Positions 560-50,094 of a stretch of 53,012 nucleotides of DNA are shown here, one piece after another. The translations under genes and the position numbers were made by a program. The DNA lies in contig JAETNQ010000026.1 of NCBI GenBank assembly GCA_021772075.1, forward strand, positions 1 through 53,012, read 5' to 3'. The DNA comes from Lachnospiraceae bacterium (GTDB lineage Bacteria > Bacillota > Clostridia > Lachnospirales > Lachnospiraceae). The notes below the pieces were generated by a model. The model searched no databases. It was not told the origin of the DNA and saw only the letters and a list, made by a program, of their open reading frames with translations. Each line of letters starts with the position of its first letter. Positions within the stretch are counted from its first letter, which is position 1.

Positions 560-1457
560 TGCAGATTTCCTCCTGTTTTTGTGTCTTTCCTCTGTATTCA
601 GAAAGGAACAGTCCGATTAGTGCCAGAACCGTACCTATGCCGGACATCACGGTTACTTTTTCGTTCAGGATAAGGGCGGATGTGACAACCGTAATAACCG
701 GAACTAAGTAAATGTAAATGCTTGTTTTGACAGCGCCTAGAATCTTTACAGCCATGTTCCAGGTAACGAAACAGAGTGCGGATGCGCCCAAGCCCAGAAA
801 GATCAGATTTCCCAGGTAGACTGGATTTGCGAACCGTTCTGCTCCAATGCGGCAGTCAAACAGGAATAAAGCAGGTATCATAAATACGATACCATAAGCG
901 AATACCCGCCTTGTGGTTTGGATGGTGTGATATCCCAAACCGCTGATTTTCCGTGTCAATACAGAGTAGCAGGCCCACACAACTGCCGCAGCTACGGCCA
1001 AGAAGTCACCGATAGGACTTAACTGCATCTTTGTTCCGTTAAAGCTGATCAGGCAGATGCCGATCATTGCAACTACAAATCCGACGAAAAAATTTGCACG
1101 CAGTTTTTCTTCCTTTGTGAACAGGTGGGTGAGCATGGCTGTGAAAAAGGGTGCAATAGAAATAATCACACCTACGTTGGAGGCCATTGTATAAGTCAGG
1201 GCAATGTTCTCCAGCAGATAATACAGGCACACACCGCACACTCCCGCTGCAGCAAAGGCAACCTCCTGCCGTTTAGTAGTCCCTCTCATCCGATGAGGGT
1301 AGGCGATCAGGAGTGCGAGAAATCCCAGGATAAACCGGAAGAACAGGATTTCTATCGGCTCAAAATCTATTAAAAGCACTTTGGTGGAGATAAAGGTGAT
1401 TCCCCATATCAGGATCGTTACCAGTGCTGCCAGATGCCCGGCTGCCGTTTTATTCAT
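543..1457 (-). CDS. EamA/DMT-family transporter
   Basis: Inner-membrane permease of the drug/metabolite transporter (EamA) superfamily, normally an exporter of amino acids or other small metabolites. The 304 residues form about ten hydrophobic segments in two EamA repeats (about 8-135 and 150-290). Each repeat has the usual glycine-rich helices, e.g. 'LVTILIWGITFISTKVLL' at the start and 'LIGLFLSEY' at the end. The substrate cannot be read from sequence. The start codon overlaps the AraC regulator stop by 8 bases and the 3' end overlaps the DUF2000 start, indicating translational coupling. The adjacent regulator probably controls it. Confidence 0.9.
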   Translation of the reverse strand: MNKTAAGHLAALVTILIWGITFISTKVLLIDFEPIEILFFRFILGFLALLIAYPHRMRGTTKRQEVAFAAAGVCGVCLYYLLENIALTYTMASNVGVIISIAPFFTAMLTHLFTKEEKLRANFFVGFVVAMIGICLISFNGTKMQLSPIGDFLAVAAAVVWACYSVLTRKISGLGYHTIQTTRRVFAYGIVFMIPALFLFDCRIGAERFANPVYLGNLIFLGLGASALCFVTWNMAVKILGAVKTSIYIYLVPVITVVTSALILNEKVTVMSGIGTVLALIGLFLSEYRGKTQKQEEICNGFTE

Positions 1458-2295
1458 CTGGCGTCTCCTCCTTCGTGGCTTCTTTCTCTAAAAATATGTC
1501 ACGGTAAAGGCCCGGAGCCAAGCCGATAAATCGGTTGAAATAGTTCGTGAAATGGCTCTGGTCGGAAAAGCCTGTCTGCATGGCTGCCTCTATGGGAGGT
1601 ACACCCTGTTCCAGAAGTTTCTTTGCTTTGCCAATGCGTATGTTCTCTAAGTAGCTGTATGGCGTGACGCCTTTGGACTTGGTAAAGGCCCGGAGCAATG
1701 TGGATTTGCTAAGACCAGCATAACGGCAGATCTGATCTAAATAAATCCGATCCGCAAAGTGCTGTTCCATAAAAGCGCAGGCTTTGTCAATTTCCTCCCG
1801 GCATTCCGGGATACAGCTTTCAAAGGGCTGCCCATACCGTTGAATCAACAGAGATATGAGGAGCAGCAGATTTTCTTCTTTGCCGAACTCACAGGAGCCT
1901 TTCATGACCAGTTCGTGGAGTGGGTGCAGATAGCAGGTCACTTCCTCATCGAAAATCACGTTTTGGGAAAAGCCGGGAAGTTCCCTTCTCCCGGTCACTT
2001 CTTCTGCCAGGTCCAGCATGATTTCTTTGGTAATGTTAAATCCCCGGTAACCCAGTGTGCCGTCATCGCTCTGGACACAGGTGTGGTTATCTCCGGGATT
2101 GAAAAGAATGATATTGCCTTTTGTTATGGTGTATTCCTGATTGCGGCAGGAGAGGCAGCGTTCCCCGTCCTCTATAAACCCAATCACATAGTATTCATGG
2201 AAGTGGTTTGGAAACGGCTGCACGATTCCCTCAAAACGGTATGCCTCAATCCGAAGCTCATCATCATAAACCACCGTCCTTGTTTCTTTTTTCAT
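1450..2295 (-). CDS. AraC-family transcriptional regulator with cupin sensor
   Basis: AraC/XylS-type activator. Residues about 25-100 form a cupin-like sensor with 'NHFHEYYVIGFIEDG' and 'NIILFNPGDNH'. The last 100 residues carry the two helix-turn-helix motifs ('YLDQICRYAGLSKSTLLRAF' and 'PIEAAMQTGFSDQSHFTNYF'). I chose the internal ATG nine codons after the first possible start because AAGGAGGG lies directly upstream of it. It is first in the operon with EamA and DUF2000 and presumably activates it in response to a small effector, which is unknown. Confidence 0.9.
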   Translation of the reverse strand: MKKETRTVVYDDELRIEAYRFEGIVQPFPNHFHEYYVIGFIEDGERCLSCRNQEYTITKGNIILFNPGDNHTCVQSDDGTLGYRGFNITKEIMLDLAEEVTGRRELPGFSQNVIFDEEVTCYLHPLHELVMKGSCEFGKEENLLLLISLLIQRYGQPFESCIPECREEIDKACAFMEQHFADRIYLDQICRYAGLSKSTLLRAFTKSKGVTPYSYLENIRIGKAKKLLEQGVPPIEAAMQTGFSDQSHFTNYFNRFIGLAPGLYRDIFLEKEATKEETPDE

Positions 2296-2437
2296 GTGTG
2301 TTCCCTCCTTGCTGTCCTTCATTGTAGCATTTCAAAATGCAAAAGGCTTGTAAAATATCTTCATTTTTCACGGTCTACTGGATAGCCGACCGCAGATATG
2401 GTATGCTATAAGCAATTTATCTGACGGAGGTATGCGT

Positions 2438-2707
2438 ATGGATGAACACCAGAATCCATTAACTTATGAAATAATCAAAGCGGCGGTTGCCGGGGAAAAA
2501 TGGGCAACAGAAAAGATTATAGCACACTATGATTCTTATATTGCAGAACTGTCCACAGTGAAAGAAAGACAGTCGGACGGAAGCGTAAAAATCTATGTGG
2601 ATGAGGATATAAAGCAATCTATTATTTTAAAGCTACTCGAAGAAATACCTAATTTCCCGATGGAGGAAGCGGAGAAACGGGCAAAAGAAGAAGCTGTCGA
2701 TATTTGA
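2438..2707 (+). CDS. HTH_16-type conjugative-transposon regulatory protein
   Basis: Small helix-turn-helix protein of the kind found in the regulatory region of Tn916-like conjugative transposons (ORF8-like, HTH_16). The signature is 'AAVAGEKWATEKIIAHYDSY' (residues about 13-32) followed by a charged C-terminal half with 'DEDIKQSIILKLLEEIP'. An ATG six bases earlier abuts the GGAGG site, so the second ATG with 7-base spacing is used. No sigma-factor or integrase gene is adjacent, so it looks like a stranded relic. A fuller counterpart sits near 20.1 kb. Confidence 0.75.
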   Translation: MDEHQNPLTYEIIKAAVAGEKWATEKIIAHYDSYIAELSTVKERQSDGSVKIYVDEDIKQSIILKLLEEIPNFPMEEAEKRAKEEAVDI

Positions 2708-2984
2708 AATAGTTTCGATGCATTGTGATTTTAGACCGAAGGTTTTATTTATGAATACTAAACTCTGGAAAAGGCAAATTGATACGTTTTGCAAGAGTCA
2801 TATCACCAGATATGTTTTTGGGGGAAGAAAACAAGATATTGCATAGAGGACTTTTATATAAATAGCAAAACCGCAATATAGGGTATTTGAAATGGAGGCG
2901 CAAGAACCCTTCAAAACCGGAGATATAACATTGGGGTATAGTGGTGTCTGATTTTACGAAGTATCGGGCTTGAAAACGGTTCGA

Positions 2985-3319
2985 GGGTACATTATGTGGT
3001 AGAAAAGCCTGAAATAAGCCCTATATGTGGGAAAAATCCGGCTCATGCAGAAATTAGAGTACATAAAATTTGTGTGTTTCTTGGACGAACGGTTCATACT
3101 CATGGAAGAATAAAAGGGTGGGGTAAACTTCAGAAAAAGAAGCCCCCACCTTTTCGCGTAACTAAGAGGGTATCAGAACTTTTCCGCAAAACGGAAAATG
3201 CGGTTGTACCTTTTCGCAAAAGAGGTATGAGTGATAAAACGGTGGTTGCCGGAAAGAAATGGGCAACAGAACGAGTTCTTAGGTATTACGATGATTATAT
3301 GATACCCTGCTATAATTGA
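2985..3319 (+). pseudogene. Decayed mobile-element DNA ending in an HTH_16 gene fragment
   Basis: A frame open for about 107 codons whose parts do not fit one protein. The first part ('HYVVEKPEISPICGK', then 'RTVHTHGRIKGW') vaguely recalls the zinc-binding N-terminus of an ISL3-type transposase; that is weak. The last 20 codons ('VVAGKKWATERVLRYYDDYM') clearly match the HTH_16 protein encoded 600 bases upstream. In between are three TTTTCGC/TTTTCCGC words like those in repeats upstream of conjugative-transposon sigma genes. The 280 bases before this feature show no gene. Confidence 0.5.
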
Positions 3320-4779
3320 TTCCGGATAATATCGGCAAGTGTTATGGCAGCTTTTTTAAATTCTTCACAAGATGTATAGGCATAAGAAAGACGGAGGGAG
3401 TTATTGTGTTCGAAATCATAAATGTCTCCCGGATTTAACAGTATTTTATTTTTCGCAGCTTTTTCAAAAAGCCGCTCCATATTGGTGGCAACCTTTAAGG
3501 TAAGCCAGATATAAAAACCGCCTTTCGGAACAGTCCAATCTGCAAAGTCTTTATAATGCAGAGATAAAACAGCAAGGGCGTGATCTCTCCGGCGCAAGAG
3601 TTCTGCTTTTAAATCGGTCAAATAGTTTTGATACATTCCACTGGAAAGAAGTTCTGCAAATGCCCATTGGGAAATAGAACTGGCACCGTAGTCCGTTTGC
3701 ATCTTAACATCACCTAGTCTTTGAACGATTGGTTCGGCCGCAATGAGCCAGCCGATACGCAGACCGGGAGCAAAGGATTTTGAAGCACTTCCCAAGTAGA
3801 TTACCATGCCTGCTTTATCCATTGATTTCAGCGTTCCGGGTGGATTTCCCTCAAAACACAATTCCTGATAAGCACCATCTTCAATAATGGGCAGACGGTT
3901 GGCGGTACAGAAATCAATTAAATCTTTACGTCTGCTTTCTGACATTGTTATACCAGTAGGATTATGGTTGGTCGGTATGGTATAAAGAATGGAAGAATTC
4001 TGCTGATTGTTTTTTCTTAGTTGCTGTTCCATCTTTCCAAATTGCATACCCTTATCATCCATCGGTATACCGGATAATTTCATTCCGGCAGACTGGAATA
4101 CCTGTAGGGATTTCAGATAAGTCGGGGCTTCTGTGTATATGGTAGAACCGTTTTTTAACAGGCAGACAGAGATTAGCTGTAATGCCTGAAGCGAACCGGA
4201 TGTGACCAATATGCAGGATGGAGGAGCATCAATCCCTAAATTTTTCATGTGTCTGGAAATTGCTTCCCTTAATTCTGGAAGTCCCAATGGTTCTAAATAT
4301 CCCAACGAGGTCATTTTCTGGCTTAATTTTTCTAATACACATTGCCATATCTTTTTCGGGAAAAGACGTGGATCAAGTTCACCAGTCCCCAATCTTATCA
4401 TATCTGGCACAAACTCTAAGCGGTTGATGGCCTGAATTGTAGAATGGTTTGCCTTGAAAAATCCAGAAGAAACGTAATTGCTCCAATCTGGGGAAGGTGG
4501 CAGAAGCAGGGACCATGTATTACTGACAATTTGTGTTCCAGCTCCGTGACAGCCTTCGATAATGCCATAAGAGGCTAATTCATCTATGGCAGTGACAATC
4601 GTACTTCTGTTTACTCCAAAGCTCTCTGCTAAAGTACGTTGTGAAGGAAGTCTAGTTCCGATAGGCCATTCCCCTTTTGCAACTCTATTGCATACGAACT
4701 GTACAATCTGTTGATAAATAGGTGTTACTGATTTTTTATCCGGTTTCCAATCGATCTGGATCGGTGGTGTTCGTTTCAA
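3310..4779 (-). CDS. MocR-type PLP-dependent transcriptional regulator
   Basis: Fusion of a GntR-type winged helix (residues about 8-80, 'TPIYQQIVQFVCNRV', 'RLPSQRTLAESFGVNRSTIV') with a fold-type I aminotransferase domain (about 100-485). PLP-site residues are visible: 'TNHNPTG' and the Schiff-base lysine in 'SASKSFAPG' (about residue 334). The class usually controls amino acid, vitamin B6 or GABA metabolism. Upstream in-frame codons exist, but AGGAG lies 8 bases before a TTG, giving 489 aa, typical for MocR. It is divergent from a LysE exporter, its likely target. Confidence 0.9.
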   Translation of the reverse strand: MKRTPPIQIDWKPDKKSVTPIYQQIVQFVCNRVAKGEWPIGTRLPSQRTLAESFGVNRSTIVTAIDELASYGIIEGCHGAGTQIVSNTWSLLLPPSPDWSNYVSSGFFKANHSTIQAINRLEFVPDMIRLGTGELDPRLFPKKIWQCVLEKLSQKMTSLGYLEPLGLPELREAISRHMKNLGIDAPPSCILVTSGSLQALQLISVCLLKNGSTIYTEAPTYLKSLQVFQSAGMKLSGIPMDDKGMQFGKMEQQLRKNNQQNSSILYTIPTNHNPTGITMSESRRKDLIDFCTANRLPIIEDGAYQELCFEGNPPGTLKSMDKAGMVIYLGSASKSFAPGLRIGWLIAAEPIVQRLGDVKMQTDYGASSISQWAFAELLSSGMYQNYLTDLKAELLRRRDHALAVLSLHYKDFADWTVPKGGFYIWLTLKVATNMERLFEKAAKNKILLNPGDIYDFEHNNSLRLSYAYTSCEEFKKAAITLADIIRNQL

Positions 4780-22148: not shown

Positions 22149-22453
22149 ATGAGGAATTATTGAAGATTGCGGATGGGCTGCTGGTAGTGGCCGAGGGCAT
22201 CCGCGCAATGGCGGGAGGCAATACGGCTGGTGACAGTCCGGCAGAAACACACGCAGATGCTGGTAAGGCCGGAACGTCTGAACCTGAAAAGACAGTTACT
22301 ATTGAGGACGTCCGTGCGGTGCTGGCGGCAAAATCACAGGACGGCAAGACCAAAGAGGTCAAGGCGCTGCTGATGAAGTATGATGCCGGGAAGCTGTCTG
22401 GCGTCAAGCCGGAGGACTATGCCGCCCTTCTTAAAGAAGCGGAGGTGCTCTGA
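22145..22453 (+). CDS. Phage hypothetical protein
   Basis: 102 residues: a helical N-terminus 'LLKIADGLLVVAEGIRAMAG', a low-complexity Ala/Gly/Asp linker and a C-terminal helical part 'VTIEDVRAVLAAKSQDGKTK' then 'EVKALLMKYDAGKLSGVKPE'. The C-terminal part resembles a small helical domain common in phage early operons. No function is known. ATGA-type overlaps join it to both neighbours. Confidence 0.6.
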   Translation: MNEELLKIADGLLVVAEGIRAMAGGNTAGDSPAETHADAGKAGTSEPEKTVTIEDVRAVLAAKSQDGKTKEVKALLMKYDAGKLSGVKPEDYAALLKEAEVL

Positions 22454-23580
22454 TGGGCGCTCATGCCCGCTTTTCCCCATCTGCCAGTAAGCGTTATCTG
22501 AACTGTCCTCCGGCTTTACGTCTGGAGGAGCAGTTCGCAGATGAGGAGAGCGTCTATGCGGCTGAAGGTACTGCCGGACACGCTATGGCAGAACACCTTG
22601 TTAAGAAATACCTGAAGCGGAGAACCCGCCGCCCGGTATCGGATTATTACTCGGATGACCTTTTGGAAGCGGTGGAGGAGTATGTGGCCTATGTGGTGGA
22701 GCAGATCGAAGCTGCCAGGCGGGAGTGCGCCTCCCCTATCCTTTCGGTGGAGCAGAGGGTGGATGTATCGGAGTATGTGGCGGACTGCTTTGGGACAGCG
22801 GACATGATGATCGTGACCGACAGAAAGGTCCATATCATCGATCTGAAACTTGGCCGGGGCGTTCCGGTGTATGCCGAGGAAAATCCGCAGCTTATGATCT
22901 ATGGCCTGGGTGTCCTGCTGATTGCGGAGATGCTCTATGACATTGACACGGTGGAAATGACCATCGTGCAGCCGAGGCTTGAAATCTTAAGCACCTGGGA
23001 AATGGCAGCCGATGACCTGAAAGCGTGGGGCGAGGAAGTCCTGCGTCCGAAGGGAGCGATGGCGCTTGCCGGAGAGGGTGAGTTCTGTGCCGGGGACTGG
23101 TGTCGGTTCTGTAAGGCGAAGAACACCTGCAGGGCAAGGGCAGAGTCGTTTCTGAAGCTGGCGCAGAAGGAGTTTGCCCCTCCTCCCACCTTATCGGATG
23201 AGGAGATCGCGGAGGTGTTAAAGGTTGCGGACGAACTGTCCAAATGGGCGGCGGATGTATATGCCTATGCACAGGATGAAGCGGTCACTCATGGAAAAGA
23301 GTGGAGCGGGTTCAAGCTGGTGGAGGGCCGGACGAACCGGAAGTACACCGATGAGCAGGAAGTCATCGCCGCTGCCAACGCTGCCGGGTATACGGATATT
23401 TTCAAGCGTTCCCTGATCGGCATTACAGAGATGCAGAAGCTGATGGGAAAAAAGAAGTTTGATGCGGTTTTGGGTTCGCTGGTGTATAAGCCGCAGGGCA
23501 AGATCACCCTGGTCCCGGAATCGGACAAACGGGAAGCCATTCATAAATCAACCGCTGCGGCGGATTTTCAGGAGGATTAA
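22453..23580 (+). CDS. DUF2800 protein, Cas4/RecB-like nuclease
   Basis: 375-residue phage protein of the DUF2800 family, a PD-(D/E)XK nuclease relative of Cas4/RecB. Nuclease core motifs are an early Glu/His region 'EGTAGHAMAEHLVKKYLKRR', 'GTADMMIVTD' and the D-x-K strand 'VHIIDLKLGRGVPV' (about residue 130). A cysteine cluster 'CAGDWCRFCKAKNTC' near residue 215 resembles the Fe-S-binding segment of Cas4. It probably processes DNA ends in recombination or replication, acting with the DUF2815 protein encoded next. Confidence 0.85.
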   Translation: MGAHARFSPSASKRYLNCPPALRLEEQFADEESVYAAEGTAGHAMAEHLVKKYLKRRTRRPVSDYYSDDLLEAVEEYVAYVVEQIEAARRECASPILSVEQRVDVSEYVADCFGTADMMIVTDRKVHIIDLKLGRGVPVYAEENPQLMIYGLGVLLIAEMLYDIDTVEMTIVQPRLEILSTWEMAADDLKAWGEEVLRPKGAMALAGEGEFCAGDWCRFCKAKNTCRARAESFLKLAQKEFAPPPTLSDEEIAEVLKVADELSKWAADVYAYAQDEAVTHGKEWSGFKLVEGRTNRKYTDEQEVIAAANAAGYTDIFKRSLIGITEMQKLMGKKKFDAVLGSLVYKPQGKITLVPESDKREAIHKSTAAADFQED

Positions 23581-23582
23581 TC

Positions 23583-24125
23583 ATGAGTAATACACAGAAC
23601 AAAACCAAAGTTATCGTACCCTGCCGTTTTTCCTATCTCCATTGTTGGGAGCCGGATTCCATCAACGGCAGCGAACCGAAGTACAGCGTGTCTGCCATTA
23701 TTCCGAAGTCAGATACTAAGACTGTGGAGGCGATCAAGGCTGCGGTGGAACAGGCCAAGAAGGATTCCGTTTCCAAGTGGGGCGGCAAGATTCCGGCCAA
23801 CTTAAAGCTGCCTTTGCGTGACGGTGATATCGACCGCCCGGATGATGAAGCGTATGCAGGATGCTACTTCTTTAATGCCAACAGCCGACAGGCCCCGGAG
23901 ATCGTGGATGCCCAGGTGCAGCCGATCTTGAACCAGGCAGAGGTGTATTCCGGTTGTTACGGCAGGATCAGCGTGACCTTCTACGGTTACAACAGTAATG
24001 GCAATCGTGGCATTGCTGCCGGACTTGGCAACATCCAGAAGCTGCGTGACGGTGATCCGCTCGGCGGCAGAACCCGTGCAGAGGATGACTTTGAGCCGGA
24101 GGCAGACGAGGACTTCCTTTCCTAA
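23583..24125 (+). CDS. DUF2815 protein, probable ssDNA-binding protein
   Basis: 180-residue DUF2815 protein. Recognisable segments are 'VIVPCRFSYLHCWEPDSING', 'KYSVSAIIPKSDTKTVEAIK' and 'DAQVQPILNQAEVYSGCYGR'. It ends with an acidic tail 'DFEPEADEDFLS' like those of single-stranded DNA-binding proteins. Together with its position between the nuclease and DNA polymerase, this suggests an OB-fold ssDNA-binding role; that is inference. AGGAGG precedes the ATG. Confidence 0.8.
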   Translation: MSNTQNKTKVIVPCRFSYLHCWEPDSINGSEPKYSVSAIIPKSDTKTVEAIKAAVEQAKKDSVSKWGGKIPANLKLPLRDGDIDRPDDEAYAGCYFFNANSRQAPEIVDAQVQPILNQAEVYSGCYGRISVTFYGYNSNGNRGIAAGLGNIQKLRDGDPLGGRTRAEDDFEPEADEDFLS

Positions 24126-24190
24126 CCATTCAAAGGGTGGCGGGCAGCCGCCGCCCGGTACATAGCAAGAGGAAGGAGGACCTGAAACCT

Positions 24191-27076
24191 ATGGAACCAA
24201 TCAAAACGATATCTGTGGATATTGAAACATATAGCAGTGTGGATTTGGGAAAAAGCGGAGTTTACAGATATGCGGAGTCAGAAGATTTTGAAATCCTCCT
24301 GTTTGGATATTCCGTAAATGGAGGTCCGGTGCAGGTGGCTGATCTGGCCTGCGGGGAAGAAATCCCACCTGAGATCATTTCAGCCCTTTTGGATAATGCT
24401 GTCCTGAAATGGGCCTTTAACGCACAGTTTGAGCGCATCTGCCTTTCGCGGCATCTTGGGCTGCCGACAGGAAAATACCTCGATCCGGTATCCTGGCATT
24501 GCACCATGATCTGGTCTGCCACATTGGGACTTCCCATGTCACTGGCCGGAGTGGGTACCGTCCTGGGGTTGGAAAAACAGAAGCTCACGGAAGGCAAAGA
24601 CCTCATCCGGTATTTCTGTGTTCCGTGTAAGCCAACAAAAGCCAATGGCGGCAGGACCAGGAACCTGCCGGAGCATGACCGGGGCAAGTGGGAGCAGTTT
24701 AAGGCATATAACCTCCGGGATGTGGAAACGGAAATGGAGATACAGAAGAAGCTGTCAAAGTTCCCGGTACCAGAGAGCGAGTGGCAGAATTACCACTTAG
24801 ACCAGCAGATCAATGACCGGGGCGTTGCCCTGGATATGGTGCTGGCGCATCGGGCAGTCCGGTGTGATGAGCTGTTCCGGGAGTTGTATCTACAGCAGGC
24901 ACGGGATATTACCGGATTGGAAAATCCAAATTCCGTATTACAGCTTCGGGACTGGCTGCGGGAACACGGTGTGGAGCTGGATTCCCTGTCAAAGAATGCA
25001 GTTCAGGATTTATTGCCGGATACTGATGGGGCTGTGAAAAAAGTCCTGTCACTCAGGCAGGAGCTTTCAAAGAGCAGCGTCAAGAAATACACGGCAATGG
25101 AAAACGTGGCCTGCAGGGATTTTCGAGGACGGGGACTTATCCAGTTTTACGGTGCATCGAGAACCGGCCGATATTCCGGGAAACTTCTCCAACTTCAAAA
25201 TCTCCCTCAGAACCATCTGCCGGATTTGGAGGTTGCCCGTTCCCTTGTACGGACCGGGAATTTTGATGCTTTGGAGTTGCTCTATGACAGCGTTCCCAAT
25301 GTGCTGTCGGAACTGATCCGGACAGCGATTGTGCCAAGAAAGGGATGCCGCTTCATTGTATCCGACTTCTCAGCGATTGAAGCGAGAGTCCTCTCCTGGT
25401 TTGCCGGAGAGAAATGGCGGCTGGATACCTTTGTGCAGGGCGGTGACATTTACTGCGCTTCTGCATCTCAGATGTTCGGGGTTCCGGTAGAGAAGCATGG
25501 AGTCAACGGTGACCTCCGGCAGAAAGGAAAACAGGCGGAGCTGGCCTGCATTGCCGAGGGGCAGTTGGTTTTGACCGATCATGGGCTTATACCGATTGAA
25601 AAGGTCACTCCTTCCCACCTGCTGTGGGATGGCTGCTCATGGGTTGCCCATGAAGGCGTGGTATGCAATGGAGAACGGGAGGTGTTGGAATATGACGGAC
25701 TCATCGCAACAGCCGACCACCTCGTCTGGATCGAGGGGAAATCGGAGCCGATACCATTTGGAATCGCCGCCTCCTGCGGCGCACATCTCATACAAACCGG
25801 AGATGGTCGGAGAACAATACGGATGGGTGAAAATTATCAGCCCGGAGAAACGCTGGAACAAAGCAATGAACCATTGTTATGTGCTGACCAAGTGCCAGGG
25901 GTGCGGGAGCATCCAGTGGCAGAACCGGAACAATCTCATAAGCGGGAAGTCGAAGGGCTGCCAGAGCTGTTCGCAGCCGAGGCAGATTCCCAAATGGCTG
26001 GACAGACGATTAACAGCAGCAAAGCAGCGGTGCGAAAATCCCAACGATCCCGGATATGCCAATTATGGAGGACGGGGCATAAAGTTTTCGTTTCCAAGTG
26101 TGACAGCGGCGGGGCTGTATCTGATAAAGAAGTATGGCCTTCCACCCAGGCAGATGGAAATCGACCGTATCAACAACAATCTGGATTATGCTCCGGGCAA
26201 TTTGCGGTTTGTGACTCATGCAGAGAACAACAGAAACAAACGGGGTACGGTGCTGACAAGGTTCGCACCGGAGTTCTGGCCGTACTCCTACACCGTTGTG
26301 ATTCGCAAACTGTCCCAGGGACTAAGCCGGGAGGAGATTATCCGGGAGGCAGAAATTGCAGTGTTCGAGAGAAGGAAAAACTGGCGGCTCATCCTCGCAA
26401 GGTTAGAGTTTATGACATACGAAATGCCGGAGGACATCATCGTTTTACCGTATCGGGCAGGTTAGTCCATAACTGCGGGTATGGCGGCTCGGTGGGGGCT
26501 ATGAAGTCAATGGGCGCAGTCCGTATGGGAGTAAAGGAAGAGGAATTGAAACCGCTGGTGGATGCGTGGCGGCAGTCCAATCCGAAGATTGTGCAGTTCT
26601 GGTGGGAGGTGGACCGTGCGGCGAAGATGTGCGTGAAGCAGCGGATCACCACGCAGGCTGGCAGAATCCGGTTTGAGTACCAAAGCGGCATCCTGTTTGC
26701 CACGCTCCCCTCCGGCAGACGGCTTGCTTATGCAAAACCGCGCATGGGCGAGAACAAGTTTGGCAGTGAGGCGATCACCTATGAGGGTGTGGGAGCATCG
26801 AGGAAATGGATGCGTCTGGAAACCTACGGGCCGAAGCTGGTGGAGAACATTGTCCAGGGAACCGCCCGTGACCTTCTGGCCCTGGCGATGCTGCGGCTGG
26901 ATGCGGCAGGCTATTCGGTTGTGATGCACTGTCATGATGAGGCAATCTGCGAGGTTCCCATCGGGCAAGGCTCCGTGGAGGAAGTCAACCGGATCATGGC
27001 AATCGCACCGGATTGGGCCGGGGGACTCCCGCTCCGGGCAGACGGCTATGAATGCGAATTCTACAAAAAGGACTAA
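24191..27076 (+). CDS. Phage family A DNA polymerase with in-frame intein
   Basis: 961-residue precursor. The N-terminal DEDD proofreading exonuclease starts 'ISVDIETYSSVDLGKSG' with 'WAFNAQFERICL'. The polymerase domain shows 'FYGASRTGRYSGKLLQLQNL', motif A 'FIVSDFSAIEARVLSW', the O-helix 'RQKGKQAELACGYGGS' (interrupted) and motif C 'VMHCHDEAICEV'. An intein (residues about 453-761) sits in the O-helix between 'ELA' and 'CGYGGS'; removal gives a 652-residue enzyme of normal length. ATG with GGAGG 10 bases ahead is chosen over an upstream in-frame start. An HNH ORF lies inside the intein in another frame. Confidence 0.93.
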   Translation: MEPIKTISVDIETYSSVDLGKSGVYRYAESEDFEILLFGYSVNGGPVQVADLACGEEIPPEIISALLDNAVLKWAFNAQFERICLSRHLGLPTGKYLDPVSWHCTMIWSATLGLPMSLAGVGTVLGLEKQKLTEGKDLIRYFCVPCKPTKANGGRTRNLPEHDRGKWEQFKAYNLRDVETEMEIQKKLSKFPVPESEWQNYHLDQQINDRGVALDMVLAHRAVRCDELFRELYLQQARDITGLENPNSVLQLRDWLREHGVELDSLSKNAVQDLLPDTDGAVKKVLSLRQELSKSSVKKYTAMENVACRDFRGRGLIQFYGASRTGRYSGKLLQLQNLPQNHLPDLEVARSLVRTGNFDALELLYDSVPNVLSELIRTAIVPRKGCRFIVSDFSAIEARVLSWFAGEKWRLDTFVQGGDIYCASASQMFGVPVEKHGVNGDLRQKGKQAELACIAEGQLVLTDHGLIPIEKVTPSHLLWDGCSWVAHEGVVCNGEREVLEYDGLIATADHLVWIEGKSEPIPFGIAASCGAHLIQTGDGRRTIRMGENYQPGETLEQSNEPLLCADQVPGVREHPVAEPEQSHKREVEGLPELFAAEADSQMAGQTINSSKAAVRKSQRSRICQLWRTGHKVFVSKCDSGGAVSDKEVWPSTQADGNRPYQQQSGLCSGQFAVCDSCREQQKQTGYGADKVRTGVLAVLLHRCDSQTVPGTKPGGDYPGGRNCSVREKEKLAAHPRKVRVYDIRNAGGHHRFTVSGRLVHNCGYGGSVGAMKSMGAVRMGVKEEELKPLVDAWRQSNPKIVQFWWEVDRAAKMCVKQRITTQAGRIRFEYQSGILFATLPSGRRLAYAKPRMGENKFGSEAITYEGVGASRKWMRLETYGPKLVENIVQGTARDLLALAMLRLDAAGYSVVMHCHDEAICEVPIGQGSVEEVNRIMAIAPDWAGGLPLRADGYECEFYKKD
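25547..26473 (+). other. Intein in DNA polymerase (309 codons)
   Basis: Begins with Cys in 'CIAEGQLVLTDHGLIPI' (block A), has block B 'GLIATADHLVWIEG', and ends with block F/G 'VYDIRNAGGHHRFTV' and 'SGRLVHN', followed by Cys of the C-extein. Splicing residues Cys1, the block B Thr/His, the penultimate His and terminal Asn are present. The central ~190 codons in this frame make no recognisable domain, because the region encodes an HNH endonuclease in the +1 frame. Confidence 0.9.
25803..26465 (+). CDS. HNH homing endonuclease nested out of frame in the intein
   Basis: 220-residue frame, shifted +1 relative to the polymerase/intein frame. It encodes a typical phage HNH endonuclease: N-terminal 'GWVKIISPEKRWNK', a four-Cys zinc site ('LTKCQGCGSIQWQNRNNLIS', 'GKSKGCQSC'), 'RCENPNDPGYANYGGRGIKF', the HNH core 'EIDRINNNLDYAPGNLRFVT' with 'HAENNRNKRG', and a C-terminal helix 'SREEIIREAEIAVFERRKNW'. 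The start is uncertain: the ATG has GGAG too close, a GTG 24 bases on is possible, and frameshifting from the intein frame is another route. Its last ~25 codons overlap intein block F/G. Confidence 0.8.
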   Translation: MVGEQYGWVKIISPEKRWNKAMNHCYVLTKCQGCGSIQWQNRNNLISGKSKGCQSCSQPRQIPKWLDRRLTAAKQRCENPNDPGYANYGGRGIKFSFPSVTAAGLYLIKKYGLPPRQMEIDRINNNLDYAPGNLRFVTHAENNRNKRGTVLTRFAPEFWPYSYTVVIRKLSQGLSREEIIREAEIAVFERRKNWRLILARLEFMTYEMPEDIIVLPYRAG

Positions 27077-27523: not shown

Positions 27524-27910
27524 ATGAGATTGTACGTTTCAACGGGAAACTCCCGTATGGATAAGACCTGGAACGGTCAGGAAATGGAGCTGGATGATTT
27601 TATTGCCCGGATTTCTGTAACCAGAAGGACTTCGGAGACTGTGGCGCAGTACCGGAAGCTGTCGAAGGCGAAGCAGGATGCCATCAAGGATGTGGGCGGT
27701 TTTGTCATGGGCCGCCTGAAGGATGGCCGCAGGAAGAAAGACAGCGTTATCTCCCGGTCGGCCTTAACGCTGGATATGGATTATGCGACTGCGGATGTTG
27801 CGGAGCAGTTGGAGATGTTCTCTCCTTCCAGTGCTTTTTGTATTCCACCCATAAAAGCACACCGGAGAAACCGAGGCTCCGGCTCATCATCCCTCTCTCC
27901 CGTGAGGTGA
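27524..27910 (+). pseudogene. N-terminal part of VapE-type primase/helicase, before a frameshift
   Basis: The first ~97 codons ('MRLYVSTGNSRMDKTWNGQE', 'KQDAIKDVGGFVMGRLKDGR', 'SALTLDMDYATADV') match the N-terminus normally fused to phage VapE-type proteins. After 'EQLEMFS' the frame goes into nonsense and ends 30 codons later. Inserting one base near 27821-27824 (CTCTCC to CTCTTCC) would give 'EMFSSFQCFLYSTHKS' and join the next frame. Therefore one base is missing, or a -1 shift occurs in translation. Confidence 0.75.
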
Positions 27911-29910
27911 CGCCGGATGAGTACATGGCGGTGGCCCGCAAGATTGCCGAGGATGTGGGCATGGAGCTGTTTGATGATACCACCTATGAGCCGAGCCGCC
28001 TGATGTACTGGCCTTCCACCTCTGCGGACGGGGAGTTTATCTACCGGGAGATCAAGGGCAGCCCGCTCGATCCGGATGCCGTGCTTGCCAGATACACCGA
28101 TTGGAGAAACTCTGCGGAGTGGCCCGTTTCCAAGCGGCAGGAAAAGATTGTGCAGCGGGAGATCAAGAAGCAGGCGGACCCATTGCAAAAACCCGGTCTG
28201 GTCGGAGCGTTCTGCCGCGCTTACTCTATCGAGGATGCCATCGACACCTTCATCCCGAATGTCTATAAGCACAGCGCCATGCCGGGGAGGTATGACTATA
28301 TCCCTGCGGACTCCCAGGCAGGCGTGGTGATCTATGAAGGGAGGTTTGCCTATTCCCATCATGCCACGGACCCGGCCTGCGGCAAGCTGATGAACGCCTT
28401 TGATGTGGTGCGCCTGCACAAGTTTGGCGATCTGGATGGAAAGGCGGATGAAGATACACTGCCTACGAAGCTGCCATCTTTCAAGGCCATGCAGGAATTT
28501 GCTTCTCAGGATGAGACCGTCCGGGAGGTGCTTGGCCGGGAGCGCCTGGAGGCCGCCAGTGAGGAATTTGACGATGCAGATTGGCAGAAGCATCTCAACA
28601 TCGACAAGAACGGCAAAGTGGTGGAGGATATCGGCAACTATGTCCTGATCCTGCGCCATGATGAGAATTTGCAGAGCATGGCGTTCAATAAGCACCGGGA
28701 CGGCATTGACGCCAGAGGGGAACTTCCCTGGCAGCAGATGAAGGATGGCTGGAATGATACGGATGACGCTGCTCTTGCCGTGTATCTGAACAAGGTCTAT
28801 GGGCTGTACTCCCCAACGAAGATGCGTCCTGCGATCCTGGCAGTGGCGGCGGAGCGGGCCTACCATCCGGTGCAGGAATATCTGGAGCATTTGCCAGCCT
28901 GGGACAATGTCCCCCGCGTGGAGCGCCTGCTGGTGGATTACTTTGGGGCGGAGGATACCAGTTACACCAGGGCAGTCACCCGCAAGACGCTGGTCGCGGC
29001 GATCGCACGGATTTATAAGCCGGGTACGAAGTTCGACTCCGTCCTCATCCTGAACGGTCCGCAGGGAATCGGCAAGTCCACCCTCTTTGCGAAGCTGGCG
29101 GGACAGTGGTTCTCCGACAGTCTGGCGGTTACCGATATGAGGGATAAGTCCGGCCCGGAGAAGCTGCAGGGCTATTGGATTCTGGAACTTGGCGAGCTGG
29201 CCGGAATGAAGAAAACCGATGTGGAGACGATCAAGTCCTTCATCTCCCGTGTGGATGATAAGTACCGCGCCAGTTACGGAACCAACGTGGAGAGCCATCC
29301 GAGGCAGTGTGTCATCGTGGGTTCCACCAATAACGAGAATGGTTTCCTGCGTGACATTACCGGAAACCGGAGATTCTGGCCGGTACGCATTAGCGGCGAA
29401 AGTGAGAAGCACACATGGGATATCACGGCGGAGATCGTGGAGCAGATATGGGCGGAGGCGCTGGTGATCTATGGCCGTGGCGAGAAGCTGTATCTGGAAG
29501 GAGAGGATGCGAAGCTGGCCGTGAAGGAGCAGTCAGACGCGATGGAGGTGGATGACCGGGAAGGTCTGGTGCGGACATATCTGGAAAAGCTGCTGCCGGA
29601 AGGTTGGGATGGTATGAGCATCTTTGACAGGAGGAATTTTCTGAACGGTAGTGAGTTTGGAGGAGGCGGACGTGTGGGTACGGTGCGCCGGACGAAGGTC
29701 TGCAACATGGAAATCTGGTGCGAGTGCTTTGGGAAAGAACCGTCAACCATGAAGAAAACGGATTCCTATGAGCTGACTGCCATCATGAACCGCATCGGCT
29801 GGAAGAAATATGCCGGAACCAAGACGGGAACGTGTCATTTTGCCATTTACGGGAAGCAGAGGGCAATGGTGCCGCCGGAACAAGGAACAGTTGGAACATC
29901 AAATGTATAA
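27838..29910 (+). CDS. VapE-family phage primase/helicase, main part
   Basis: 690 codons of a virulence-associated E (VapE) type protein, the replicative primase-polymerase/SF3-like helicase of such phages. Primase-like N-terminal motifs 'STPEKPRLRLIIPLSREVTP' and 'PSRLMYWPSTSADGEF' are followed by an ATPase with Walker A 'LNGPQGIGKST' (about residue 410), Walker B 'YWILELGELAGMKK', 'VGSTNNENGFLRDITGNRRF' and a C-terminal DNA-binding part. The formal start is TTG without a ribosome binding site. The true N-terminus is the preceding fragment in the other frame, so the gene is broken or uses frameshifting. Confidence 0.85.
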   Translation: MYSTHKSTPEKPRLRLIIPLSREVTPDEYMAVARKIAEDVGMELFDDTTYEPSRLMYWPSTSADGEFIYREIKGSPLDPDAVLARYTDWRNSAEWPVSKRQEKIVQREIKKQADPLQKPGLVGAFCRAYSIEDAIDTFIPNVYKHSAMPGRYDYIPADSQAGVVIYEGRFAYSHHATDPACGKLMNAFDVVRLHKFGDLDGKADEDTLPTKLPSFKAMQEFASQDETVREVLGRERLEAASEEFDDADWQKHLNIDKNGKVVEDIGNYVLILRHDENLQSMAFNKHRDGIDARGELPWQQMKDGWNDTDDAALAVYLNKVYGLYSPTKMRPAILAVAAERAYHPVQEYLEHLPAWDNVPRVERLLVDYFGAEDTSYTRAVTRKTLVAAIARIYKPGTKFDSVLILNGPQGIGKSTLFAKLAGQWFSDSLAVTDMRDKSGPEKLQGYWILELGELAGMKKTDVETIKSFISRVDDKYRASYGTNVESHPRQCVIVGSTNNENGFLRDITGNRRFWPVRISGESEKHTWDITAEIVEQIWAEALVIYGRGEKLYLEGEDAKLAVKEQSDAMEVDDREGLVRTYLEKLLPEGWDGMSIFDRRNFLNGSEFGGGGRVGTVRRTKVCNMEIWCECFGKEPSTMKKTDSYELTAIMNRIGWKKYAGTKTGTCHFAIYGKQRAMVPPEQGTVGTSNV

Positions 29911-45476: not shown

Positions 45477-48176
45477 ATGGAAACAAGACCAGTAGATTAT
45501 CCAAAGCTAAAGGATTATAAACCGACAAAGTTTATGCTGCCCACATCCCATTATGATAAGGCAAAAGCGGATCGTGCGGTGAAGTTTATCGAGAACCTCC
45601 GCCATACAAAAGGAAAATGGTCTGGAAAACGATTCTGGCTGCTGCCGTGGCAGGAGCAGTTGGTCCGGGATATTTTTGGCATCGTGCAAGAGGATGGGAA
45701 CCGCCAGTTTCGTTCAGCGTATGTTGAAATATGCAAGAAAGTCGGCAAGAGTGAGCTTGCGGCAGCCATTGCCCTGTATCTTTTGTTTGCAGACAATGAA
45801 CCGTCAGCAGAGGTTTATGGCGCGGCGGCCGACCGCCAGCAGGCATCGATTGTATTTGATGTGGCAAACCAGATGGTGCAGATGGTTCCGGCACTTATGA
45901 AACGGTGCAAGATTATGGCGGCCACAAAGCGGATTGTAAACTATAATAATGCCGGGTTTTATCAGGTGCTATCGGCAGAGGTTGGCTGTATGGCCAGAGA
46001 AACAATCGTGCAGATGGCAGACGGTACCATTCGGCGGGCAGATGAAATTAAGGTGGGTGATGTCATTCTTGCTTCTGATGGACAGACTCCGGTATTTGAT
46101 GAAGTAGTTTCGATTGCGGAAGAAGCGCCTGCACCAGTGGTAGAAATTACCACCCATCACAATCGTAAGACGAAAGTGACCTTGAACCATCCATTTTGGC
46201 GTATGGAGCCAGGACGGAGACGGCAGGATTTAACTCATGTGTATGAGTGGATGGAGGCAGGGCAACTCCAAAAGGACGACCGTCTGGCTGTTTCGCTAGG
46301 CTGGCCGTCCTCTTTTGTAGTACCGGAGGATGCAATCGATCCATTAGATGCCTGGGCGCTTGGAGCCTGGGCCGGAGATGGCGACTGCACACATTTTCGC
46401 TTTATCAATCCGGATGAACCTGTTATTGAGAAATTGCGGGGTTTTATGGAGCGTATCGGCTGCGGATTAAAGTCTGTATATTCTACAAGACAGAAGCAGG
46501 CAGGAAAAGACCAATACCAGAAGCCGATTGAACATTTGATTACAGGCCAGGGAAAACGGAGAAAGTGTGCAGGACGGGAATGGGTAAGGGAGAACTTTGG
46601 ACAGGAGTGCAGAGCAAAAACGAAGCGTGTGCCAGTGGCTGTCTGGAGGGGCGGCCCTTTGGTTTGGGCGGCTTTTTTAGCGGGCTACATTGATACGGAT
46701 GGCTGTGTGATCTGCAAAGACCATCTGAGTGTGACGATTTGCAGTGTGAGTCAGGAAATGAGGGAGGATTGCCGAATCCTCTTGGCCCGTTTGGGTATCA
46801 ACGCTTCCAATTGTAGTAAATTTAACCTGAGAATATCCGGTAAGCCACAGCTTAGAAAGCTATGGAAGCTGCTCTCTCCCCATATGGTCCACCCAAGAAA
46901 AAGAGAACGGTTGGAAGTGTGTGCAAATCAGGAAATTAGCTGTTGGCAGAGAAGCTCCGAATCAGACAAGGTTATGACGGTAACGGAGCTTCCGGAGCAG
47001 AAAACGATCTCCTTTGAAATGAAACAATACCAGACTCATGTGACGGATGGGCTGGTTACCCATAATACCAAACATGGGTTCAATGTCAGTGGACTGGTGT
47101 TTGATGAGATACACACGCAGCCTAACCGGAAGCTGTATGATGTTCTGACCAAAGGCTCCGGCGATGCCCGTGAGCAGCCGCTTTTCTTCATTATTACAAC
47201 AGCGGGTACGGATAAGAACAGTATCTGCTATGAGCTGCATACCAAAGCACTGGATATTCTGAATGGCCGGAAGATCGATCCCTCCTTTTACCCGGTGGTA
47301 TATGGATTGACCGAGGAGGATGACTGGACGGATGAGGCGAACTGGTATAAAGCGAATCCGTCTCTTGGCTATACCGTGAAGATGGAACGTATGAGGGATG
47401 CGTTCCGTGATGCTTTGGATAACCCGGCAGAGCAGAACGTGTTCAAGCAGCTTCGTTTGAACATCTGGACATCGGCAACGGTGTGCTGGATACCGGATCA
47501 CATCTATGACCGGGGAAACACACCGGTTCCGGTCGAGTCGCTCCGTGGCCGGGACTGTTACGGCGGCCTGGACCTCTCCAGCACTTCGGACATTACAGCC
47601 TTTGTGCTGGTGTTCCCGCCACGGACAGAGGATGAAAAATACATTGTCCTTCCGTTCTTCTGGCTGCCGGAGGAAACGATGGAGCTTAGGTGCCGGAGGG
47701 ATCATGTCCCCTATGATGTCTGGCAGCAGCAGGGCTTTATCATGACCACGGAGGGAAACGTCATTCACTATGGATTTATTGAGAAATACATTGAACGGTT
47801 GGGAGAGATTTATCATATCCGGGAGATTGCCGTTGACCGATGGAATGCCACGCAGATGATCCAGAACTTAGAGGGTGACGGATTCACGATGGTTCCCTTC
47901 GGACAGGGCTATAAGGATATGTCCCCGCCGAGCAAGGAGCTGTATAAGCTGCTGATGGAGGGGAACTTCATTCATGGCGGCAACCCGGTCCTCAAATGGA
48001 TGGCGCAGAACATTGTGATGCACCAGGACCCGGCTGGCAACATCAAGCCGGATAAGGAAAAGTCCACGGAGAAGATCGATGGCATCGTGGCATGGATCAT
48101 GGCCCTTGACCGCTGCATCCGGCATAAGGATGAGGGTGGTAGCGTGTATGACGGCAGAGGAATTTTGGTTTTCTGA
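45477..48176 (+). CDS. Terminase large subunit with LAGLIDADG intein
   Basis: 899-residue precursor of the packaging ATPase/nuclease. N-extein: 'FWLLPWQEQLVRDIFGIVQE' and Walker A-like 'EICKKVGKSELAAAIAL'. After the intein comes Walker B 'VSGLVFDEIHTQPNRKLYDV', coupling motif 'FIITTAGTD', and nuclease domain 'CYGGLDLSSTSDITAF' (metal-binding Asp) with 'IAVDRWNATQMI'. Removing the intein (residues 171-530) leaves 539 residues, normal for the family. The insertion lies just before the Walker B strand, so unspliced protein should be inactive. Confidence 0.94.
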   Translation: METRPVDYPKLKDYKPTKFMLPTSHYDKAKADRAVKFIENLRHTKGKWSGKRFWLLPWQEQLVRDIFGIVQEDGNRQFRSAYVEICKKVGKSELAAAIALYLLFADNEPSAEVYGAAADRQQASIVFDVANQMVQMVPALMKRCKIMAATKRIVNYNNAGFYQVLSAEVGCMARETIVQMADGTIRRADEIKVGDVILASDGQTPVFDEVVSIAEEAPAPVVEITTHHNRKTKVTLNHPFWRMEPGRRRQDLTHVYEWMEAGQLQKDDRLAVSLGWPSSFVVPEDAIDPLDAWALGAWAGDGDCTHFRFINPDEPVIEKLRGFMERIGCGLKSVYSTRQKQAGKDQYQKPIEHLITGQGKRRKCAGREWVRENFGQECRAKTKRVPVAVWRGGPLVWAAFLAGYIDTDGCVICKDHLSVTICSVSQEMREDCRILLARLGINASNCSKFNLRISGKPQLRKLWKLLSPHMVHPRKRERLEVCANQEISCWQRSSESDKVMTVTELPEQKTISFEMKQYQTHVTDGLVTHNTKHGFNVSGLVFDEIHTQPNRKLYDVLTKGSGDAREQPLFFIITTAGTDKNSICYELHTKALDILNGRKIDPSFYPVVYGLTEEDDWTDEANWYKANPSLGYTVKMERMRDAFRDALDNPAEQNVFKQLRLNIWTSATVCWIPDHIYDRGNTPVPVESLRGRDCYGGLDLSSTSDITAFVLVFPPRTEDEKYIVLPFFWLPEETMELRCRRDHVPYDVWQQQGFIMTTEGNVIHYGFIEKYIERLGEIYHIREIAVDRWNATQMIQNLEGDGFTMVPFGQGYKDMSPPSKELYKLLMEGNFIHGGNPVLKWMAQNIVMHQDPAGNIKPDKEKSTEKIDGIVAWIMALDRCIRHKDEGGSVYDGRGILVF
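45987..47066 (+). other. Intein with LAGLIDADG endonuclease in terminase (360 codons)
   Basis: Starts 'CMARETIVQMADGTIRRADE' (block A), block B region 'TTHHNRKTKVTLNHPFW', two LAGLIDADG motifs 'ALGAWAGDGD' (about precursor residue 293) and 'FLAGYIDTDGCV' (about 403), then block F 'FEMKQYQTHVTDGLVTHN'. Cys1, block B His, penultimate His and terminal Asn are present, and the +1 residue is Thr. The endonuclease is in frame, unlike that of the polymerase intein. Confidence 0.93.
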
Positions 48177-48778: not shown

Positions 48779-48818
48779 GCATCTGTCAGTTTGAAATACT
48801 GGCGGGTGCTTTTCTTTT
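48779..48818 (+). terminator. Terminator after moron-like gene
   Basis: GCATCTGTCAGT pairs with ACTGGCGGGTGC over 12 positions (three G-U pairs) with 7-base loop, followed by TTTTCTTTT. Confidence 0.75.
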
Positions 48819-48840
48819 GCCCATTTTTAGGAGGTGCAGT

Positions 48841-50094
48841 ATGGGACTAAGGGATTTGTTTGGACTGGCAAAGGCGAGGGATAAGCCTATGGATTACCGG
48901 GTGGGATCACAGTATTCCTTTTTATTCGGACCGACCACCAGCGGAAGGACAGTCAATGAATACACGGCCATGCAGACCACGGCAGTGTATTCCTGTGTGC
49001 GGATACTTTCCGAGGCGGTGGCATCCCTGCCGCTTCACTTATACCGCTATGCGGGAAGAAGTAAGGAACGGGTGTATGACCACCCGCTTTATCACATCCT
49101 GCACGATGAACCGAACCCGGAAATGACTTCTTTTATCTTCCGGGAAACGATGATGACGCATCTGCTCCTTTGGGGAAATGCTTATGCACAGATCATCCGG
49201 GACGGGGCTGGCCGTGTGGTAGGGCTTTATCCCCTGCTTCCCAATAAGATGCGTGTTGACCGGGACAGGAACGGGCAGCTTGTCTACACCTATACCCGTG
49301 ATTCCGATGATAACCCGAACTTTACAGGCTACGGGCAGGTGACGCTTGGCCGGGAGGATGTGCTTCATATTCCGGGGCTTGGGTTTGACGGGCTGGTGGG
49401 GTACTCCCCCATTGCCATGATGAAGAATGCCGTGGGGATCACGCTGGCCTGCGAGGAATACGGTGCCAGTTTCTTTGCCAACGGAGCCACACCGGGCGGT
49501 GTCCTGGAGCATCCGGGCATCCTAAAAGACCCGAAGAAGGTGCGCGATTCGTGGAATGAGGTGTACCGGGGCAGCGGAAATGCCCACAAGGTGGCCGTAC
49601 TCGAAGAGGGCATGAAGTACCAGCAGGTCGGCCTGCCACCGGAGGACAGCCAGTTCCTTGAAACGAGGAAGTTCCAGTTGGATGAGATCGCGCGGCTTTA
49701 CCGTATCCCTCCGCACATGGTTGGCGATCTGGATAAGAGCAGCTTTTCCAATATTGAGCAGCAGTCTTTGGAGTTCGTGAAATACACCTTAGACCCCTGG
49801 GTGATCCGGTGGGAGCAGTCATTACAGCGGGCGCTCCTTCTGCCGGGGGAAAAGACAGCGTATTTCATCAAGCTGAACGTGGACGGTCTGCTGCGCGGTG
49901 ATTACGCTTCCCGTATGGCCGGATATGCGACCGCAAGGCAGAATGGCTGGATGTCCGCCAACGATATCCGGGAGATGGAGGACATGAACCCGATTCCGGA
50001 TGAAGAAGGCGGCAACCTGTATCTGATCAACGGCAACATGACCAAGCTAAAGGATGCGGGCATTTTTGCCGGGAAGGGGCTGCCGGAGGAATAG
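48841..50094 (+). CDS. HK97-family portal protein
   Basis: 417-residue portal that forms the dodecameric DNA gate of the head. Family segments: 'AVYSCVRILSEAVASLPLHL', 'MTHLLLWGNAYAQIIRD', 'DVLHIPGLGFDGLVGYSPIA', 'FFANGATPGGVLEHPGIL' and 'LDEIARLYRIPPHMVGDLDK'. GGAGGTGCAGT precedes the ATG. The C-terminus 'NMTKLKDAGIFAGKGLPEE' is typical. It is followed by a 260-base non-coding gap before the protease gene. Confidence 0.95.
   Translation: MGLRDLFGLAKARDKPMDYRVGSQYSFLFGPTTSGRTVNEYTAMQTTAVYSCVRILSEAVASLPLHLYRYAGRSKERVYDHPLYHILHDEPNPEMTSFIFRETMMTHLLLWGNAYAQIIRDGAGRVVGLYPLLPNKMRVDRDRNGQLVYTYTRDSDDNPNFTGYGQVTLGREDVLHIPGLGFDGLVGYSPIAMMKNAVGITLACEEYGASFFANGATPGGVLEHPGILKDPKKVRDSWNEVYRGSGNAHKVAVLEEGMKYQQVGLPPEDSQFLETRKFQLDEIARLYRIPPHMVGDLDKSSFSNIEQQSLEFVKYTLDPWVIRWEQSLQRALLLPGEKTAYFIKLNVDGLLRGDYASRMAGYATARQNGWMSANDIREMEDMNPIPDEEGGNLYLINGNMTKLKDAGIFAGKGLPEE

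Follow-up and report, generated by a model that had tools for sequence, protein, structure and literature searches.

A probable intein in a prophage DNA polymerase gene with an HNH endonuclease gene overprinted in its +1 frame

The usual description of an intein is of a single protein that includes its endonuclease as an in-frame fusion. As the part of PMC6293099 drawn on here presents it, the dCTP deaminase of cyanophage CL131 carries such a canonical in-frame HNH intein, in which a single protein contains both HintN and HNH_3 and for which excision was demonstrated. The closest precedent found in print for the locus treated here is the ShiLan domain, which the part of PMC11855218 drawn on here describes as an out-of-frame HNH with zinc fingers, with no splicing motifs and, by its authors' account, no detectable ribosome-binding site. 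The two-frame layout is not reported in the passages of PMC8425127, PMC3229294 and PMC5050341 drawn on here, and among the literature titles and abstracts listed none reports an intein with an out-of-frame endonuclease; a preprint, Gosselin et al. 2025, whose title names a non-canonical intein architecture, may overlap. The locus lies in a 53,012-nucleotide (nt) stretch of DNA from a Lachnospiraceae bacterium (assembly GCA_021772075.1, JAETNQ010000026.1, positions 1 to 53,012, forward strand), the full length of which is called the window below. Its family-A DNA polymerase gene holds an insert that looks like a functional class-1 intein in the polymerase frame, and an HNH endonuclease is encoded in the +1 frame of the same insert (Table 1).

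A class-1 Hint intein is defined by a nucleophile at residue 1, TxxH in block B, an Asp in block F, a terminal HN and a nucleophile at +1. The insert presents C1 (CIAEG), T-x-x-H (ATADH), VYDI...HRF, and H-N followed by C+1, all within an open reading frame (ORF; 24137-27076) that has no stop over its whole length and matches DNA_pol_A of Pfam (5.3e-19) and phrog_17 DNA polymerase (3.9e-142); it opens with GTG at 24137, and the ATG at 24191 can be inferred to be the likelier start. Within the intein, stops occur twice in the +1 frame, at 25572 and, as the HNH gene's own stop, at 26463, and 19 times in the +2 frame. The +1 product bears the zinc and HNH signature in its invariant cysteines and core residues and in a match of its form of 220 amino acids (aa) to phrog_374 HNH endonuclease (8.7e-23); against Pfam HNH_3 it reaches only 0.0033, below the cutoff. 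A first-pass annotation had already placed intein blocks in a polymerase frame stop-free over 309 codons, which the open ORF and the splicing residues bear out, and had read an HNH with a four-Cys zinc site and a DRI..NN..Y..GN core in the +1 frame, as translation and alignment confirm. It put the HNH at about 25.8-26.46 kb; that end holds, and the start is moved, most likely to 25692, for a protein of 257 aa.

The explanation preferred here, at a probability of roughly 0.85, is that the intein is mobile and that its endonuclease is encoded by a gene of its own, overprinted on it and translated from an internal start. Ribosomes that translate the polymerase would pass through the insert, and the 309-aa class-1 intein would excise itself, with a passenger linker of some 200 residues in the place that the endonuclease domain takes up in a normal intein. 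A second set of ribosomes would begin at a Shine-Dalgarno sequence and ATG hidden near block B (25677-25694) and translate the +1 frame into a separate zinc-finger HNH endonuclease. This enzyme would cut intein-free polymerase genes, and repair would copy the whole insert in.

Table 1. Features of the intein-bearing polymerase gene and of the HNH gene nested in it (window coordinates; a slash marks the insertion junction)
Feature	Position	Strand	Remarks
Family-A DNA polymerase gene, intein-interrupted	24191..27076	+	N-extein to 25546; C-extein from 26474
Apparent intein, 309 codons, polymerase frame	25547..26473	+	Filled site ELA/C...HN/CGYGG; intein-free alleles ELA/LGYGG
Shine-Dalgarno-like GGGAGGTG, inside intein codons	25677..25684	+	7 nt before ATG 25692
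Overprinted HNH endonuclease gene, +1 frame, 257 aa	25692..26465	+	Probable start ATG 25692, stop TAG 26463-26465; conserved in 32 aligned sequences
Intein block B (GLIATADHLVW), polymerase frame	25697..25729	+	Overlies first HNH-gene codons; T55, H58 invariant in alignment A2 (39 sequences)
Passenger stretch of intein frame, ~200 codons, stop-free	25803..26408	+	Protein-level constraint not visible there; HNH codon position 3 (intein position 1) differs at about 0.38-0.66
Four-Cys zinc site of HNH protein (C68, C71, C90, C93), +1 frame	25893..25970	+	All four invariant in alignment A3
HNH core (EIDRINNN.DYAPGNLRFVT..ENNRN), +1 frame	26157..26237	+	E156, D158, R159, N170, N179, N182 invariant in A3
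Intein blocks F and G (VYDIRNAGGHHRFTVSGRLVHN)	26408..26473	+	Overlap HNH C-terminus

How far does the arrangement extend beyond the window? Searches with the HNH gave 37 loci on viral contigs and 77 on genome contigs, and phage records supplied named examples. The survey covered 131 loci that have a relative of the HNH, the window among them, a count in which near-identical copies and some duplicated contigs remain. At 102 of these the HNH is nested out of frame in a larger stop-free ORF on the same strand and at 29 it is not; 90 nested loci have the window's phase (+1) and 12 the +2 phase. In a second survey of viral contigs the intein N-part was the sole query, and the best 80 of 219 candidates were taken, many of them on contigs also met in the HNH search. 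Six HNH queries matched 72 of these 80, always in the +1 frame and never in the intein frame, and left eight without a match, seven of them mini-inteins and one cut by a contig end. Among the 72 matches, that of L188 lies beyond the intein and those of L142, L189 and L212 are remnants; in all 72 inteins the intein frame is stop-free for at least 213 codons from Cys1. The intein is exactly 309 aa long in 48 of the 54 measured and 310-311 aa in three, the last three being mis-parsed at the start. The nested endonuclease gene proposed in the first-pass annotation is thus borne out in both searches, with the same frame offset recurring among homologues, and the pattern named there as contrary to it, an HNH always in frame in homologues, did not appear.

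Current records mostly pass over the second gene. The named carriers Gardnerella phage vB_Gva_AB1 and Streptococcus Javan113 and Javan255 are each annotated as a single DNA polymerase, and among the nested phage records L040-L042, L046-L048, L053 and L055-L057 the HNH is listed as a gene in SO-1 only. The Ent2 record annotates an intein encoding splicing domains, without the HNH.

A few loci differ in their layout. One 214 kb viral contig has two polymerase genes (L011 and L012), each with a two-frame intein, and in L206 what seems to be the end of a further intein (VWDIEVETDHSYVAHGLIHHN) lies in the polymerase upstream of position 3501, ahead of the two-frame intein. In Vibrio phage ICP2 (L054) the polymerase coding sequence is annotated as joined from two pieces (1218-3786) and a small ORF inside (2477-2926) has an HNH match, a layout that is not nested by the test. 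L134, from a GC-rich Streptomyces, has its HNH in an 855-aa open stretch whose translation starts like a free-standing HNH and in which no polymerase was recognised. L037 was set aside: its second frame has no stop at the first match, but encodes neither polymerase nor intein, and at the better match the HNH is not nested.

Could the double openness be a product of chance, base composition or sequencing errors? The GC (guanine plus cytosine) content of 54% around the insert does lower stop frequency, but synonymous shuffling of the window's HNH gene gives 9.1 expected stops in the intein frame where none is observed, with 0 of 500 shuffles stop-free, and many AT-richer loci for which shuffling predicts 8-18 stops have none. 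Sequencing error is excluded by the same offset in many independent assemblies, some of them with loci that were chosen without regard to the HNH, and the explanation as a whole is hardly credible. Avoidance of stops can also be followed in the context that would create one in the intein frame, an HNH codon with T in third position and AA, AG or GA directly after it: it occurs in 0/3589 cases in 75 distinct class I genes against 2953/8492 elsewhere in the same genes, in 341/1163 against 802/2569 in 28 non-nested homologues, and, in its class II equivalent, in 0/183 against 56/183, the pooled zeros being partly circular, as the absence of a stop there was the criterion for calling a locus nested. 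The non-circular support is the number of qualifying loci together with the intein-only survey.

Substitutions by codon position separate the two frames along the insert. The map, drawn from 59 loci and 1634 pairs that are not independent of one another, is intein-like at 25689-25724, mixed at 25725-25760, mostly HNH-like with two mixed stretches at 25761-26408, and intein-like again at 26445-26471; at 26409-26444 there is little change at any codon position. Within the HNH-like part, HNH third positions, which are intein position 1, differ at 0.32-0.66; extein third positions, in a set that overlaps the map's without being identical to it, differ at 0.64. From this map it follows that the HNH is under protein-level selection and that the polymerase frame in mid-intein has no visible protein-level constraint besides the absence of stops. 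The first-pass annotation had taken the long double openness as a sign of selection on both frames, with sequencing errors the less likely cause, and had proposed substitution patterns as a check; it was right about the errors, and in the middle of the intein selection on the polymerase frame is reduced to the lack of stops, with amino acids not visibly held.

The HNH probably starts at ATG 25692, with its Shine-Dalgarno sequence hidden in intein codons. Most carriers have an HNH-frame ATG 111 nt before the codon aligned with 25803, within a REVI-Y-x-GL stretch and behind a Shine-Dalgarno-like sequence. The ATG at 25803 itself was considered and dropped as the start, because that codon varies, being ATG in 57 of 67 distinct loci, and selection on the HNH frame sets in before it, near 25761. 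The start was tested on 119 parsed carriers, grouped into 67 clusters at 90% identity, and on 11 mini-intein clusters, among which are L142, L188, L189 and L212, counted above with the 72 HNH matches; L004, L024, L025, L030, L102, L107, L110 and L111 were omitted from this test and from the selection map, and eight loci with an unparsed intein start from this test only. In 58 of the 67 carrier clusters an ATG in the HNH frame combines good Shine-Dalgarno pairing with a frame that stays open, against 5.0 expected from synonymous intein recoding; the combination is also present in 4 of the 11 mini-intein clusters, three of those four with HNH remnants. From the ATG onward the HNH frame is open in 67/67 carrier clusters versus 5/11 for mini-inteins. 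Seven carriers without an ATG at -111 (L104, L105, L168, L170, L171, L172, L193) have another at -123 behind AAAGGAG, a replacement that L144, L209 and L211 do not have. In class II relatives the ATG is mostly near -153, with weaker pairing.

A +1 ribosomal frameshift out of the polymerase frame might instead give access to the HNH, and would yield an N-intein/HNH fusion. The +1 offset of 90 of the 102 nested loci would suit such a mechanism, as would HNH-frame selection that starts before ATG 25803 and the two of 67 carrier clusters (L144, L211) with no open-frame ATG of any pairing in the zone. Frameshifting would leave unexplained, however, the ATG and Shine-Dalgarno pairing in 58 clusters where about five are expected, as well as the substitute ATG at -123, and the 12 relatives in the +2 phase would need a different shift. 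The first-pass annotation had left nested gene and frameshifting side by side; because of the hidden ATG with its Shine-Dalgarno sequence, internal initiation is favoured over frameshifting, which seems improbable, without being proven.

Several observations weigh against reading the insert as an intein with a separately initiated endonuclease, in addition to the circularity of the pooled zeros. Without the open-frame condition, ATG with Shine-Dalgarno pairing is found in 60 carrier clusters versus 31.4 by recoding, and in 7 versus 5.4 for mini-inteins, so much of the excess is due to the open frame. Nine of the 67 carrier clusters have no good combination of ATG and Shine-Dalgarno sequence. 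Pairing strength alone exceeds recoding only to a moderate degree, averaging -7.7 against -6.1 and being stronger in 50 of 65, with few loci individually significant. At the Tyr codon from which the ATG arises, TAT is used in 59/65, versus 460/886 of polymerase Tyr codons, but most HNH-less mini-inteins have the same bias, and for that reason it was dropped as proof of a start. In the endonuclease, the residue usual at the first catalytic HNH position is a His (DH motif); all 32 aligned HNH sequences have Arg there (DRI). For the splicing domain, the window intein has no match in Pfam, so that its Hint assignment rests on the blocks and on weak profile matches: intein_Nterm matches 9 of 39 intein members, at best at 0.0088, and a profile of the intein N-part finds seven PDB sequences up to E 1, at best at 0.018. 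The titles of those entries name DNA polymerase III alpha and NEQ068, which we take to be inteins.

This weak similarity to known Hint profiles, together with the out-of-frame HNH described in the part of PMC11855218 drawn on here, could point to a ShiLan-like HNH insertion that the polymerase tolerates and that does not work as an intein. The residues on which splicing would depend argue otherwise. Across 80 distinct inteins, C1 is kept in 79, TxxH in 80, the block-F Asp in 80, the penultimate His in 79, the Asn in 80 and C+1 in 80, the counts at the end being favoured by a parsing pattern that accepted only HN-like endings with C, S or T next to them. These inteins come from 95 of the 102 nested loci; the seven unparsed are L025, L026 and L111 (contig ends), L102 (a stretch of N), L004 and L058 (polymerase frame not open, either within the intein N-part or upstream of it) and L055 (ends outside the pattern). 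HNH-less inteins of 120-143 aa also persist in the polymerase frame, Javan422 keeps its intein in frame with most of the HNH lost, and the insertion adjoins a GYGG motif common to intein-free polymerases. A merely tolerated insertion is, on these grounds, a distinctly unlikely account.

A group I intron with an HNH ORF would be another way to place an endonuclease inside a polymerase gene, and the record of Sodalis phage SO-1, which annotates the nested HNH, calls the insert around it a type I intron. Nested loci are nevertheless open in the host frame, and there is no Rfam group I match in window positions 25000-27000 (up to E 1) or in six relatives (up to E 0.1), where one unrelated short weak match was the only return. 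An intron is very unlikely here.

Insertion at a site that is empty in other alleles is a further mark of an intein, and such empty sites are present. The same genome holds a second, intein-free polymerase gene (contig C71, 7-1764, L222, 61% identity), in which the match runs to the contig end. Seven of 60 other genomes searched have a phage-type polymerase, and in all seven the site is intein-free, the two matched parts adjoining; named phages have the intein-free site as well. The junction itself is displayed for 6 of 13 intein-free loci, the other seven lying outside the strict pattern. Two intein-free polymerase genes, L049 (Javan630) and L220 (Javan105), are annotated in two pieces near the insertion site. 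Trees of the HNH and of the polymerase for 32 loci (LG model, quick method) have 9 of 29 splits in common, and in 45 pairs of clades they contradict each other with strong support, which indicates that the HNH has moved independently of its host gene. Tree conflict and empty sites fit homing.

The +2 offset of a related HNH within an intein is found in polymerases of Dhillonvirus and Jerseyvirus, in EBPR siphovirus 2 and in a few genome contigs, and the +1 and +2 phases can be inferred to have arisen independently. Such an insert also sits at another polymerase site in Caulobacter phage GB2A and, in L112, in a helicase. It is likely that there is a widespread, unrecognised class of two-frame inteins, in which splicing domain and homing endonuclease would be independent overlapping genes, joined at least twice (HNH in +1 and in +2). 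Members would occur at several sites of family-A DNA polymerases and in a helicase, and translation of the endonuclease would start from a ribosome-binding site within intein codons. The endonuclease could then be regulated apart from the polymerase, as it would not have to await splicing and could be made in a different amount. The class would also offer endonucleases a route into and out of inteins, HNH-less mini-inteins being deletion products, and would provide a phage example of overprinting, over about 770 base pairs, with natural controls. Annotation can miss nested endonucleases of this kind.

The window is a prophage, with an exonuclease (22453-23580) and a single-strand-binding protein (23583-24125) upstream of the polymerase, a terminase ORF (45477-48176) and a portal gene (48817-50094). 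Downstream of the polymerase a helicase/primase may be split over two overlapping frames (27524-27910 and 27838-29910); the first ORF has no Pfam match and the second matches phrog_256 only from model position 109.

The terminase provides a comparison within the same prophage. It holds a second, conventional intein (45987-47066) with an in-frame LAGLIDADG endonuclease (LAGLIDADG_3, 2.7e-9) and 22 and 20 stops in its other two frames. Both inserts appear to place an endonuclease between two splicing halves, but that of the terminase is in frame. Split inteins with free-standing endonuclease genes, in which the host gene is split in two, were reportedly described as 'fractured genes' by Dassa et al. 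in 2009; there too the endonuclease would be a separate gene at the intein's central position, whereas in the window host and intein are one continuous ORF that the endonuclease overlaps. As far as the part of PMC6293099 drawn on here describes it, the CL131 intein likewise combines a Hint splicing domain and an HNH endonuclease in one insert. The window's HNH, by contrast, is in the +1 frame, with none of the 80 relatives in the intein-only survey in frame, and would be made separately, so the locus is not a canonical intein with its endonuclease in frame. With the ShiLan domain, as the part of PMC11855218 drawn on here describes it, the locus has in common an HNH with zinc fingers in the alternate frame of an insert that is open in the host frame, and a mobile distribution. 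Unlike ShiLan as described there, the window insert has splicing blocks and a hidden Shine-Dalgarno sequence and ATG.

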